In this document: positions 13,671 to 17,812 of the stretch, in pieces
How positions within the stretch are numbered: position 1 is the first letter of the stretch
How the letters are laid out: each line of letters opens with the position of its first letter
Source of the DNA: Thermoguttaceae bacterium
GTDB lineage: Bacteria > Planctomycetota > Planctomycetia > Pirellulales > Thermoguttaceae
Direction: 5' to 3'
NCBI GenBank assembly: GCA_025060325.1
Contig: JANXBW010000021.1
Coordinates: 1 to 64,000 of the forward strand
DNA: 64,000 nucleotides
The notes under the pieces: model-generated
What the model was told of the DNA's origin: nothing
What the model saw: only the letters and a program-made list of their open reading frames with translations
Database searches by the model: none
Position numbers and translations under genes: made by a program

Positions 13671-14657
13671 ATGATCTCGGTTGTGATACCCTGCTACAAC
13701 GAAGAGCCGGTACTGGATACGCTTTACCGCCGGCTAACGGAGGCCGCCCGTACTTGGGGGGAAGAGTATGAAGTTATTGCTGTTGACGATGGCTCGCTCG
13801 ACGGTACCTGGCAAAAGCTTGTGGAGATTCATCAACGGGATGGGCGTTGGCGGGCGATCCGTTTCTCTCGCAATTTCGGCCACCAGACGGCGATTTCGGC
13901 CGGAATGGCAGAGGCTCGGGGCCAAGCGGTAGTGATTCTCGATGCGGACTTGCAGGATCCCCCCGAAGTTGTCAACGAATTTCTCGCCAAATGGCGGGAG
14001 GGGTATCATGTTGTTTACGGTATTCGTCGGCGACGGAAGGAGGGGCTTTTCAAGAAGGCCGCCTATTTTTTGTTCTACAGGATTCTCCGCTCCATCGCGG
14101 CGACTCCGATTCCTGTCGATAGCGGTGACTTTTGCCTGATGGATCGGTGCGTTGTTGACATTCTTAACCGCATGCCGGAACGAAATCGCTTTGTGCGGGG
14201 ACTTCGGGCGTGGACAGGCTTCCGGCAAATTGGCGTGGAGTATGAACGGCAGGCACGAGCGGCGGGTCAGCCCCAGTATACGTTTAAGAAGTTACTTCAA
14301 CTAGCAATAGACGGAATTTTTTCGTTTTCTGTGTGGCCTTTGCGACTGGCGACACGGCTGGGGCTATTGGTGTCGACATTTGCCTTTCTGGGAGTAGTGT
14401 TTACTTTTTTGCAGCGGATATACGCGGACTGGTTTGATAAGTATCTGGGCTTACGCCCGGTGCCAGGCTTTGCGACCACCGTCATTGCCATTCTTTTCCT
14501 GGGCGGTGTTCAGCTTATTTGTTTGGGAATCATTGGGGAATATATCGGCCGAATTTACGAAGAGGTCAAAGGTCGACCGCTGTGGATTATTTGCGATCGC
14601 CTGGATACACCGCCCGCTACTGGTCCGGCTCAAACGTCAACAGGCGGCAAAGCTTAG
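13671..14657 (+). CDS. Family 2 glycosyltransferase, DPM1/GtrB type, with two membrane helices
   Basis: The ATG at 13671 begins directly with the GT2 core MISVVIPCYNEEPVLDTLYR; an upstream TTG adds only five residues. The nucleotide-sugar site AVDDGSLDGT and the metal-binding DADLQD (91-96) are present, along with RFSRNFGHQTAISAG, typical of enzymes that load a sugar onto a polyprenyl phosphate. Two C-terminal membrane helices (about 225-250 and 262-288, ending GIIGEYIGRIYEE) match the GtrB/DPM1-like group. The product would be a lipid-linked sugar used for periplasmic glycan or protein modification. It stands alone, convergent with rsmH. Confidence 0.9.
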   Translation: MISVVIPCYNEEPVLDTLYRRLTEAARTWGEEYEVIAVDDGSLDGTWQKLVEIHQRDGRWRAIRFSRNFGHQTAISAGMAEARGQAVVILDADLQDPPEVVNEFLAKWREGYHVVYGIRRRRKEGLFKKAAYFLFYRILRSIAATPIPVDSGDFCLMDRCVVDILNRMPERNRFVRGLRAWTGFRQIGVEYERQARAAGQPQYTFKKLLQLAIDGIFSFSVWPLRLATRLGLLVSTFAFLGVVFTFLQRIYADWFDKYLGLRPVPGFATTVIAILFLGGVQLICLGIIGEYIGRIYEEVKGRPLWIICDRLDTPPATGPAQTSTGGKA

Positions 14658-14731
14658 GGTTGCGGCAAATGGGAAGGCCCGAGAAGTTAACTTCCTTTTG
14701 CCCCTTGTGGAATAAACTTAGGAGATAAACG

Positions 14732-15640
14732 TCAGACGATCCTCTCAGCGGCCCGAAGTTTAGCGCTTCTTGCCCGGGGATTGTCGGCCACCTCTTGGGC
14801 CGAGGGAGTCACTGGGTGAGGAGTGAGCGCTTTGAGGCGAGAGTCGTTGCGGAAGGCCTCTTTCACCAGGCGGTCTTCCAGCGAGTGGTAGCTAAGGACA
14901 ACCAGCCGGCCGCCAGGCCGAAGCACCTCGGGAATTCGCCGCAGGGCAATTTCCAACCATTTAAGCTCCTCGTTGACAGCAATCCGCAAGGCCTGGAATG
15001 TCCTCGTGGCCGGATCGATTCTGCTGCCTTTTCGGCCAATGGCCCGGCGGATAATCTCCGCCAGTTGAGATGCGGTGCGGATGGGTTGCCGCTGACGTTC
15101 GGTTACAATCGCCCGGGCAATCCTCCGACTGGCCGGCTCCTCCCCATAGCGATAGATCAGATCTGCCAATCGAGATTCGGACAATCGGTTTACCAAACGG
15201 AAGGCCGGCTCACCTGCCGACGGATCGAACCGCATATCGAGTGGACCGGATGAGTCAAAGCTAAACCCGCGCTTGTGGTCGAGCAGCTGGTCGGAGCATA
15301 GGCCCAAGTCAAGCAGCACGCCATCAACCACCGGGATGTCAAGCTCAGCCAGGATCTCTGGGAGATCGGCGTAATTCCCTTGCCGGACGAGGTGTGGGTA
15401 AGAGGCAAGAGCTGCTTCTGCCCGGGGTAATGCTGAAGGGTCCCGGTCGATACCCACAAGGAGACCCTCCGGCCCCAAAAGCTCGGCGATAGCGCGGGCG
15501 TGGCCTCCGCCGCCAACAGTAGCGTCGACAATGACTGTGCCCGGTTTGGGGGCAAGCCAATGCAGCACCTCGCTGACCATTACCGGCTGGTGAACCGTGG
15601 TTGCGGATGCTTGCTGGGGGCCCGTATTGTCCCTGTCCAT
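14732..15640 (-). CDS. rsmH: 16S rRNA (cytosine1402-N4)-methyltransferase RsmH
   Basis: The 302-aa product has the family length and motifs: the SAM-binding loop VDATVGGGGHARAIAELLG, the DLGLCSDQLLDHKRGFSF region, GPLDMRFDP, and VLSYHSLEDRLVKEAF near the C-terminus. It N4-methylates C1402 in the decoding centre of 16S rRNA using SAM. In many bacteria it sits with mraZ and cell-wall genes; here it is isolated, as is common in planctomycetes with a dispersed dcw cluster. The start at 15640 has only a weak ribosome site. A structured minus-strand element with a terminator-like end lies 125-330 bases upstream. Confidence 0.96.
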   Translation of the reverse strand: MDRDNTGPQQASATTVHQPVMVSEVLHWLAPKPGTVIVDATVGGGGHARAIAELLGPEGLLVGIDRDPSALPRAEAALASYPHLVRQGNYADLPEILAELDIPVVDGVLLDLGLCSDQLLDHKRGFSFDSSGPLDMRFDPSAGEPAFRLVNRLSESRLADLIYRYGEEPASRRIARAIVTERQRQPIRTASQLAEIIRRAIGRKGSRIDPATRTFQALRIAVNEELKWLEIALRRIPEVLRPGGRLVVLSYHSLEDRLVKEAFRNDSRLKALTPHPVTPSAQEVADNPRARSAKLRAAERIV

Positions 15641-15762
15641 GCGTAACGACTGTTTGCAAGGAGCTTCAGAAGTAGAGAAGATCCTTTTTCGACCAAATCT
15701 CAGCTCTTATCTCCGGCAGAGGTGGACTTCTGCTCTCGTTTATGATTGTTGCCGGCATAGGG

Positions 15763-15803
15763 AAAAAGCGAATGCCCTTGGGAGCCTTCCTGGTCCCAAG
15801 GGC
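15763..15803 (-). terminator. Terminator-like hairpin ahead of rsmH
   Basis: On the minus strand GCCCTTGGGA, a ten-base loop and TCCCAAGGGC form a perfect stem, followed after six bases by TTTTT (15767-15763). With one mismatch the stem extends closer to the T run. It lies about 125 bases before the rsmH start. Confidence 0.5.
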
Positions 15804-15969
15804 GTTGGGTAGGCGATCGATTCCCGGTGTCGGCCGGCCCACCAGGAATCGGGGTATGCGAAGCCGAGGGCCCTCCATGAACCCTTCGGCCCGTGAGACC
15901 CGGCCCCAGCCCAACGGGACGCCGTGAGAAGCACCAGTTGGTGGCCGAGACTGGTGCTTCGGTCTCACG
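15763..15969 (-). ncRNA. Highly structured RNA candidate in rsmH leader region
   Basis: There are four strong stems. A 9-bp stem (15892-15900 with 15961-15969) encloses a perfect 11-bp stem (15928-15938 with 15950-15960, arms GAAGCACCAGT and ACTGGTGCTTC). Then comes a 12-bp stem (15818-15829 with 15840-15851) and a 10-bp stem (15774-15783 with 15794-15803), followed on the minus strand by TTTTT. One pair in the 12-bp stem is U-G on the minus strand but C-A on the plus strand, so the RNA is probably transcribed leftward. It may be a regulatory leader of rsmH or an independent small RNA. I cannot match it to a known class. Confidence 0.5.
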
Positions 15970-16654
15970 CAACGGAATAGTCCGGTTCGGTCAAGTTTTC
16001 TTATGCCTCCGGCAAATCGCCCCAATTTTCGAAGGGGCAGAGCGGGTCCGATTTATCAGGGCGCGTATGGAATCCGCCTTTTAACCGCAGCTCTTATCAT
16101 CTTCCGAGCCAATACAGTTTACTCCGGAAAGCCGCCGCAAGCACCTGGAAAAGCGTGGCGAAAAGTATCGGGCCGAAAGGAACATCACTAAGTTTCCGTA
16201 CTTGGTAATTAGGTAGCAAATATTACTGGCCCTGGTAAATTTTGGCTCGAAAACCAGCCGCAAATGTAGGAAAAATCGGACGGATTCTCGGCAGGGACAA
16301 CGTGCTGAATCGGAGACCGGATTCTGCTTACTCCAATGGCTTGCGGGTCCCTGGTTAGAGCTTTCGCCCAGAACGTTCGGTGCCTGCACGAAATCCCGTT
16401 GCGGTAACTCAAAAGGCCTAGAAAGTCATCCGAATTGATTAGCTATTAGATAGATAATTTTTGGCCTTATTCGGCAAGCCGAAAGATGAGCTTAGCCCGC
16501 GCGAGGTGCCAGGGTACTGTTTCAAAACTTTCCCCGAAATGAATTAGCAGATTCACAAAGTGCCTTGGCAGGCTCAGGCGCCGGGCTGCCAAACTCGACG
16601 AGACCAATGGGTGTTGTTCGGTTACTCCTTTCCCGCAGATACTTCGGGCATAGC

Positions 16655-17812
16655 TTACCGTGTCGCTTGGCTGACAAGCCTCTCCCAAAGCTCTTCATAG
16701 GCCCCCACCATTCGATCGATGTTAAAAAGGCCCTCGGCCCTTGCGCGATTAAGCTGGCCTAATCGTGCACAAAGATTAGGGTTGGTAAGCAGTGCTCGAA
16801 CCCTTGCTACCCAATCGCTCTCGCACCTTGGCGGTGCTGTTTGGAGTTCGGCGCCTTCGCCAAGTAGCTCCGCCACGCCTTCCACGTTCATAGCCACCAC
16901 CGGTCGCTTGCAGGCCATTGCTTCGAGGATGACATTCGGCATCCCCTCCCACCGGGAAGGCAGCACGATCACTCGGGCCGCGCGCATGAGAGGGATTGGA
17001 TCAGTTAACCACCCGAGGTAGTGCAACCGGCCCTGAAAGTCGGGCATCCGAACAGCCGCTTCCACCTTTGACCGGTCGGGGCCGTCGCCGACAATCACCA
17101 CGTGAGGATTTGTCTGCGGCGCCGCCTCAATCAGTTGAGGCGCAAGTTTCAGTAAAAGATCCACGCCTTTTTGGAAGTCCAGCCGTCCTACGTAGAGGAT
17201 AACGTCCGCTGAAGCCGGAAGACCGTACTGGCTCCACTGGACCGGCGGCTTTTCGTCAATAGCCCGGAGGTCTACTCCGTTGGGAATGACCACGGTTTTT
17301 TGTTGGGGTACCCGGCAATGCCTGACCAGGTGTTGGGCGACCCCAGTGCTCACGCACACGTACCGATCGACCCACCGTTGGGTGAGCCTTTCTGCCCACA
17401 AATGCCACCGCTTGGCTTTTTCGGCCACTCTTACCCCGGCGATAACCGCCGGCACACCGCTCAGTCGGGCCGCAATTCGGGAGAGGAGGTTCGCGTGGAA
17501 CAAGAAGCTTTGCACAATGAGGGGCTTTGTGTGGACAAAAATCCGCCGAAGTCGTGTAAGGGCAAGGAGGCCGGTTAACGGCCCCTTCGCGCCCAAAAAG
17601 ACGGGACAAATGCCGGCGGCTACCAGGCGCGTTAGAAGTTTGCTTCGGTCGGGAGGAGGAGCCGGTTTGAGGGATACGACATCAATTGAAAAGCGCCGCC
17701 GGTCTGCCCTCGTGGCAAGCTCTACGAGATTTTTTTCCGCCCCGCCGGGCTCAAGCTCTGTAATGCACAGGGAAACCCGAATCGGTCGGCAAGGCCCACT
17801 ACTGGACATCAT
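16655..17812 (-). CDS. Family 4 glycosyltransferase
   Basis: The 385-aa GT-B fold protein has an N-terminal acceptor domain opening ITELEPGGAEKNLVELA and a C-terminal donor domain with VVIPNGVDLRAID, VGRLDFQKGVDLLLKL and the E-x7-E signature in PSRWEGMPNVILEAMACKRP. It transfers a sugar from a nucleotide donor, likely onto a lipid-linked or surface glycan; the acceptor is unknown. No other glycan gene adjoins it on the same strand. The start MMSSSGPCRPIRVSLCITE is acceptable and alternatives differ by one codon. Confidence 0.92.
   Translation of the reverse strand: MMSSSGPCRPIRVSLCITELEPGGAEKNLVELATRADRRRFSIDVVSLKPAPPPDRSKLLTRLVAAGICPVFLGAKGPLTGLLALTRLRRIFVHTKPLIVQSFLFHANLLSRIAARLSGVPAVIAGVRVAEKAKRWHLWAERLTQRWVDRYVCVSTGVAQHLVRHCRVPQQKTVVIPNGVDLRAIDEKPPVQWSQYGLPASADVILYVGRLDFQKGVDLLLKLAPQLIEAAPQTNPHVVIVGDGPDRSKVEAAVRMPDFQGRLHYLGWLTDPIPLMRAARVIVLPSRWEGMPNVILEAMACKRPVVAMNVEGVAELLGEGAELQTAPPRCESDWVARVRALLTNPNLCARLGQLNRARAEGLFNIDRMVGAYEELWERLVSQATR

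Follow-up and report, generated by a model that had tools for sequence, protein, structure and literature searches.

Hairpin cluster upstream of rsmH

A dense cluster of hairpins lies just upstream of rsmH in a 64,000-nucleotide stretch of contig JANXBW010000021.1 from a Thermoguttaceae bacterium (the window), which raises the question of whether these hairpins form an RNA and, if so, on which strand and with what role. An earlier note on this DNA had claimed four stems between positions 15763 and 15969, and all four are present there on the minus strand (Table 1). Two elements absent from its list, P3 and P4, are also conserved. The 12-bp hairpin occupies the position at which relatives carry P5, and its sequence is not conserved in those relatives. 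The terminator-like end that had been noticed is likewise in place, i.e., the P6 stem is followed by a U5 run on the minus strand.

Table 1. Features of the locus in the window, numbered from its first letter
Feature	Position	Strand	Basis
rsmH (16S rRNA methyltransferase), the gene that follows the RNA	14732-15640	minus	ORF; relatives' proteins related
U5 run after P6 (the P6 stem is followed by CGCTTTTT)	15763-15767	minus	sequence
P6, terminator-type hairpin, loop AGGAA (GGA), bulge beside loop	15771-15806; arms 15771-15783 / 15794-15806 (13 nt, 92% complementary)	minus	predicted fold
12-bp hairpin at the P5 position of relatives	15818-15851; arms 15840-15851 / 15818-15829	minus	fold
Covariance-model match, P0 to P4	15852-15977	minus	82.2 bits (R2), 65.8 bits (R3)
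P4, hairpin, loop AUGGA (GGA), of CsrA type	15862-15891	minus	fold
P1, 9-bp closing stem of three-way junction	arms 15961-15969 / 15892-15900	minus	fold
P3, variable second branch of junction	15901-15924	minus	fold
P2, perfect 11-bp hairpin	15928-15960; arms 15950-15960 / 15928-15938	minus	fold
Apical loop of P2, GGCCAC, nearly invariant	15941-15946 (plus-strand positions)	minus (RNA)	alignments
Glycosyltransferase-like gene, upstream, sense	16655-17812	minus	ORF

The region from 15755 to 15995 folds at -115 kcal/mol on the minus strand (z = -3.88), a value reached by none of 200 shuffles, and at -112.5 kcal/mol on the plus strand (z = -2.90), reached by 1 of 200. A simple scan of positions 14600 to 16700 found no sigma-70-type promoter. 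The same scan missed P6 of the window, we think because of the bulge near its loop, and returned three terminator-like sites, which equals the shuffle mean of 3.0. Two terminator detectors were used; the first missed bulged stems, and the second missed P6 of the window and hairpins without U-runs.

Relatives and distribution

A DNA search of 60 genomes recovered two relatives of the same genus, both 89% identical to the window, over 126 and 37 bases. A three-sequence covariance model (R1) matched 16 of 119 genomes of the family; 14 of these matches were judged credible, and the weak matches L035 and L036 were dropped. A sense rsmH follows 12 of the 14 copies, including that of the window, and the other two lie at contig edges; among the copies not used in model building, 10 of 11 are upstream of rsmH. 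Because synteny with rsmH played no part in the search, these matches are independently supported.

At E 1, the model R2 found matches in 39 of the 119 family genomes, from which those in G106 and G026 were subsequently removed; at E 0.1, it found matches in 70 of 396 genomes of the order, from which those in G207, G260, and G285 were subsequently removed. Seven of 78 R2 matches were dropped as chance matches (L104, L139, L140, L141, L142, and L143 twice), five of the loci being judged by reading and L143 by score and context. L102 was excluded from the alignment of R3 and retained in later counts. Eight loci (L274, L277, L282, L285, L286, L292, L293, and L294) were fetched through rsmH; they are left out of the synteny fractions and included in the terminator and P6 hairpin counts given below. 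The core model score is only 17-19 bits in L277, L292, and L294, and the RNA of L286 was also found independently of rsmH. L292 and L294, at 17-18.5 bits, contain near-identical intergenic stretches just upstream of rsmH, in which a GGGCGCATGGATGCGCC hairpin with a GGA loop is followed by a T-run; these stretches are perhaps a strongly diverged version of the RNA. A pattern scan returned at least 80 loci (at least 119 stretches). R3 was applied to the 12 whose titles were of planctomycete type and matched nine of them, but not L174, L185, or L213.

At E 0.001, R3 was positive in 60 of 296 genomes of the order, and many order genomes had no match. The RNA is single-copy, with one R3 match per genome in all 60. 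The positive genomes belong to families f1, f2, f3, f5, f13, f14, f16, and f17; we infer that the order is Pirellulales and that f16, with Rhodopirellula baltica BR-MGV and Rubripirellula obstinata, is Pirellulaceae. Positive genomes numbered 12 of 198 in a sample of the class and 2 of 199 in a sample of the phylum (both from the family of the window), and none in either sample lay outside the order, an absence that is weak evidence because the filters were strict and few candidates were scored.

Conserved structure

The relatives share the architecture P0[P1[P2,P3],P4], to which P5 and P6 are added in many species. The core takes the form of nested three-way junctions, and the GGCCAC in the loop of P2 is the most conserved stretch of the RNA. 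This structure was scored on two alignments. A4 is a sequence-only MAFFT alignment of 14 copies, and the scored structure was derived from A4 itself. In the sense direction 82.1% of its cells pair, compared with 74.9% in the antisense direction, 75.3% in shuffles, and 38.0-48.8% in slid registers, and 53 cells carry double changes, compared with 23.6 in shuffles and 15-34 in slid registers. Of 500 shuffles, 16 had at least as many further pair types as the alignment. RNAalifold, run unaided on A4, recovered P1, P2, and part of P4, together with little of P3 and no P0. The second alignment, A6, contains 70 copies aligned to R2; it is fitted to the structure and for that reason leans towards it, with 87.6% of cells pairing in the sense direction (antisense, 82.3%; shuffles, 67.8%; slid registers, 34.9-43.6%), double changes at 37 of 39 pairs, 586 double-change cells (shuffles, 186; slid registers, 90-148), and a covariation score of 0.541 versus 0.211.

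Among the individual helices, P1 is paired in 95.8% of cells in the 70 copies and has double changes at nine of nine pairs. The corresponding proportions of paired cells are 87.4% for P2, 73.4% and 78.9% for the two helices of P3 (helices 4 and 5), 85.9% for P4, and 90.3% for P0. One of the five P0 pairs forms in the window, and none forms in its nearest relative.

The stems are thus kept in relatives with compensatory changes, the kind of support that the earlier note had named, and the hairpin cluster is confirmed as a strongly conserved structured RNA on the minus strand. A leftward RNA had been proposed from the single non-Watson-Crick pair of the 12-bp stem, which is indeed a U-G pair when the minus strand is read and an A-C mismatch when the plus strand is read. 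The same strand is favoured across the relatives, because G-U pairs raise sense pairing over antisense pairing in both alignments. Conservation due to an overlapping protein frame, which would have undone the proposal, was checked in 81 copies: the best reading frame is open in 49, no frame is open in all 81, and the core lengths span all three classes modulo 3 (23, 27, and 31 copies). A protein-coding explanation is therefore rejected.

In 27 of 81 copies, an exact TCCGTCCG is located no more than 75 bases ahead of the core; this element of the 5' flank is seen in L073, L111, L286, and L302, for example, and could act as a promoter, as the site of a regulator, or as a single-stranded element of the RNA. 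An outer helix between this 5' flank and the 3' flank was considered and rejected, as it paired no better than partner-shuffled flanks; its pairing rose above that of base-shuffled flanks only in the 26 copies without mraZ or rsmH.

Genomic context

The usual order of the locus is mraZ-RNA-rsmH. In the 81 curated copies, mraZ is upstream in 41 and a sense rsmH is downstream in 50; when the eight loci obtained by way of rsmH are set aside, the values become 36 of 73 and 42 of 73, respectively. The window has the order glycosyltransferase-RNA-rsmH with no mraZ found between. The upstream gene, which we take from its sequence to be glycosyltransferase-like, also precedes mraZ or the RNA in many relatives. 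The approximately 660 bases between the RNA and this gene (15990-16654), where relatives have mraZ, gave no mraZ match.

No sense rsmH is found in 31 of the 73 copies, 4 of which are at contig ends, and rsmH is convergent in 6 of 81. In G026, a one-contig genome, the RNA is located approximately 975 kb from rsmH and is followed by a terminator-like hairpin and by a sufS-like gene in convergent orientation. In Pirellulaceae, a divergent gene, presumably kinase-like from its sequence, lies upstream of the RNA in 11 loci. On the downstream side, 7 loci have an antisense NUDIX-like gene with a CCA-adding-enzyme-like gene beyond it (names likewise presumed from sequence). Because it is kept without mraZ and with a convergent or distant rsmH, the RNA is discrete and not an obligate rsmH leader, and it does not depend on rsmH in cis. 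The two readings offered by the earlier note consequently part ways: a discrete small RNA agrees with these loci, whereas a leader of rsmH does not hold as a general explanation, since copies of the RNA are retained at loci that lack a sense rsmH downstream. We had favoured the leader-only reading at first, on the rsmH genes that follow 12 of the 14 R1 copies, and abandoned it as a general explanation on the Pirellulaceae loci without a sense rsmH.

CsrA-type loops and the 3' hairpin

Copies with mraZ or a glycosyltransferase upstream, or with a sense rsmH downstream, are referred to here as ancestral-type. The set of 21 others consists of 20 Pirellulaceae (f16) copies without mraZ, sense rsmH, or glycosyltransferase nearby and L046, a contig-end copy from the genus of the window. 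The P4 loop contains GGA in 41 of the 46 copies linked to mraZ or rsmH, for which shuffling of the loops gave a mean of 13.5 and a maximum of 23, and in 11 of 24 other copies (mean 5.3, maximum 11). In the P6 region, a GGA hairpin with an unbroken stem is found in 40 of 59 ancestral-type copies, compared with 414 of 2215 sense and 325 of 2222 antisense control windows. RCANGGANGY is present in 32 of the 59 (controls: 37 of 2215 sense, 4 of 2222 antisense) and ACANGGANGU in 12 (controls: 2 of 2215 and 1 of 2222). In the P6 region of the 21 other copies, a GGA hairpin is present in six, RCANGGANGY in one, and ACANGGANGU in none. Because the copies share common descent, these contrasts in P4 and P6 do not count as independent events. 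At least two GGA hairpins occur in 32 of 59 ancestral-type and 5 of 21 other copies. The strict P6 hairpin test is failed by 19 of the 59 ancestral-type copies, including that of the window, whose P6 has GGA in the predicted loop yet fails on the unbroken stem.

Genes for the global regulator CsrA were found in 70 of 70 genomes tested, all from the order and carrying the RNA, with 2 to 18 PF02599 matches per genome. The genome of the window encodes two CsrA-like proteins, both of which begin ML-L-R and keep VHR, which we take to be the RNA-contact residues of CsrA. Judged by sequence, the RCANGGANGY of the P6 region has the form of the published CsrA site, RUACARGGAUGU, which was obtained by SELEX mostly in hexaloops with the upstream AC paired to the downstream GU (PMC7652899), and hairpins of many copies look like CsrA docking sites. 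The stems of P6 are long, and the same source states that high structural stability may work against the binding of CsrA. CsrA binding cannot be the universal role of the RNA, since the 21 other copies are mostly without the P6 features.

A terminator-like hairpin is present somewhere in the 230 nt that follow the core in 51 of 81 copies, 35 of which have GGA in or beside the loop; under a lax test, 107 of 378 control windows gave such a hairpin, and 17 of these had GGA. A terminator-like hairpin ending no more than 95 nt from the core was detected in 36 of 60 ancestral-type copies and 3 of 21 others, by a detector that misses some, including that of the window. A GGA hairpin is kept by many of the 24 ancestral-type copies in which no terminator was detected near the core. 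A T-run within 45 nt is missing from 17 of 41 GGA hairpins at P6, and the loop is thus retained independently of termination. In many copies, P6 with a U-run intervenes ahead of rsmH. L131, L136, and L302 keep P6 with GGA though no sense rsmH follows.

Possible functions

The reading that we prefer, tentatively and at somewhat less than an even chance, is a small RNA with a conserved core that binds and probably titrates CsrA. A discrete structured RNA of approximately 200-230 nt would be transcribed leftward, with P1 enclosing P2 and P3, followed by P4, as its core, which P0 would close in most species. In the ancestral mraZ-RNA-rsmH type, the GGA loops of P4 and P6 would bind CsrA, and the RNA would either titrate CsrA or itself come under CsrA control. 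P6 would double as an intrinsic terminator where a U-run follows. We infer transcription, CsrA binding, and the resulting titration. The core must have a further role because it outlives the P6 hairpin in Pirellulaceae, and an attenuator or leader role for rsmH is possible in the linked species. Planctomycetes are a phylum with unusual cell division, and the host bacteria are not known to have FtsZ. If CsrA does bind, the RNA would be of Csr type in such a phylum, with several CsrA genes per genome, and a planctomycete Csr network could be tested in cultured species such as Rhodopirellula baltica.

It is conceivable, if doubtful, that the RNA is a composite at the head of the division and cell-wall cluster. 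The core would then have a function of its own, exerted by the GGCCAC loop, and CsrA hairpins that can be lost separately would link the locus to CsrA in bacteria with multiplied CsrA genes, one lineage having later lost the hairpins and kept the core elsewhere in the genome. Rather unlikely, in our estimate, is a discrete single-copy noncoding RNA whose main job resides in the core (GGCCAC loop, P1-P3, and P0), e.g., as part of a ribonucleoprotein or through RNA pairing, with the GGA loops as lineage-specific accessories. The persistence of the core and its GGCCAC in Pirellulaceae, mostly without P6 and often without the GGA of P4, is consistent with such an RNA, as is the single match in each matched genome. 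By itself, however, it leaves the strong enrichment of CsrA-type loops in ancestral-type copies unexplained.

We regard as improbable an attenuator that acts in cis on rsmH and the cluster behind it, in which transcription from mraZ would be ended or passed at P6, perhaps under the control of CsrA. The frequent position of the RNA between mraZ and a sense rsmH, also among copies not fetched through rsmH, and the P6 with a U-run that intervenes in many copies point in this direction. On the other hand, the RNA is also retained at loci with a convergent rsmH and at loci where the stretch examined downstream contains no rsmH, the GGA of P6 is retained in three loci without a sense rsmH, and the U-run is missing at 17 of 41 P6 GGA hairpins. 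That the cluster consists of chance hairpins or unrelated terminators is next to inconceivable: although G+C-rich DNA forms stems easily, as the terminator-like control windows illustrate, and the fold of the plus strand is good too, this reading is already refuted by compensatory changes that greatly exceed those of shuffles and slid registers, and the conserved loop and the conserved locus of matches found without synteny also speak against it.

Comparison with known RNAs

The earlier note could match the element to no known class, and the Rfam scan agrees: at the gathering score, no family matched at the window or at the loci of seven relatives. With lax thresholds, the window gave one match of 16.5 bits (E 1.7), which was taken as chance, and locus L073 gave none up to E 10. 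Literature searches, whose coverage left out most subscription papers, found no account of the planctomycete RNA. By these comparisons the RNA has no match and is new to Rfam 15, the Rhodopirellula-1 motif having been weighed only by its table listing.

We take mraW to be the same gene as rsmH. In stating that no such element was linked to rsmH, the earlier note overlooked the actinobacterial mraW motif (RF01746), a structured RNA near mraW (PMC2864571; PMC5784534). Both are conserved RNA structures beside rsmH, but the planctomycete RNA belongs to another phylum and also occurs away from rsmH. Identity of the two was rejected because the covariance model of RF01746 gave no match in the scan of all Rfam families. 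The Rhodopirellula-1 motif, from Proteobacteria and Planctomycetes, is described as probably cis-regulatory and ambiguous as an RNA, with no Rfam entry given in the table of that source (PMC2864571); by this table listing, the two share the occurrence in Planctomycetes. The decRNAs are small RNAs of the same operon region that lie inside coding regions (PMC6156199), whereas the planctomycete RNA is intergenic and independently structured. 6S RNA (RF00013) was also rejected, as its covariance model gave no match at the window. Seven of 40 genomes gave a 6S RNA match at E 0.001, with 4 of the matches above the cut-off, and 5 of these 7 genomes (G003, G004, G006, G012, and G037) carry the planctomycete RNA on another contig.

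The CsrA-sequestering RNAs of the CsrB/RsmZ type carry many repeated sites and can hold several CsrA dimers. The planctomycete RNA resembles CsrB/CsrC and RsmX/Y/Z in having GGA in hairpin loops of the SELEX form, a trait that is found in ancestral-type copies and is missing from most of the 21 others. A candidate 3' terminator hairpin in many copies and the presence of CsrA genes add to the likeness. In contrast to those RNAs, it has few GGA hairpins instead of many, with approximately two GGA sites per RNA, and it is built around an elaborate junction core with a GGCCAC loop.
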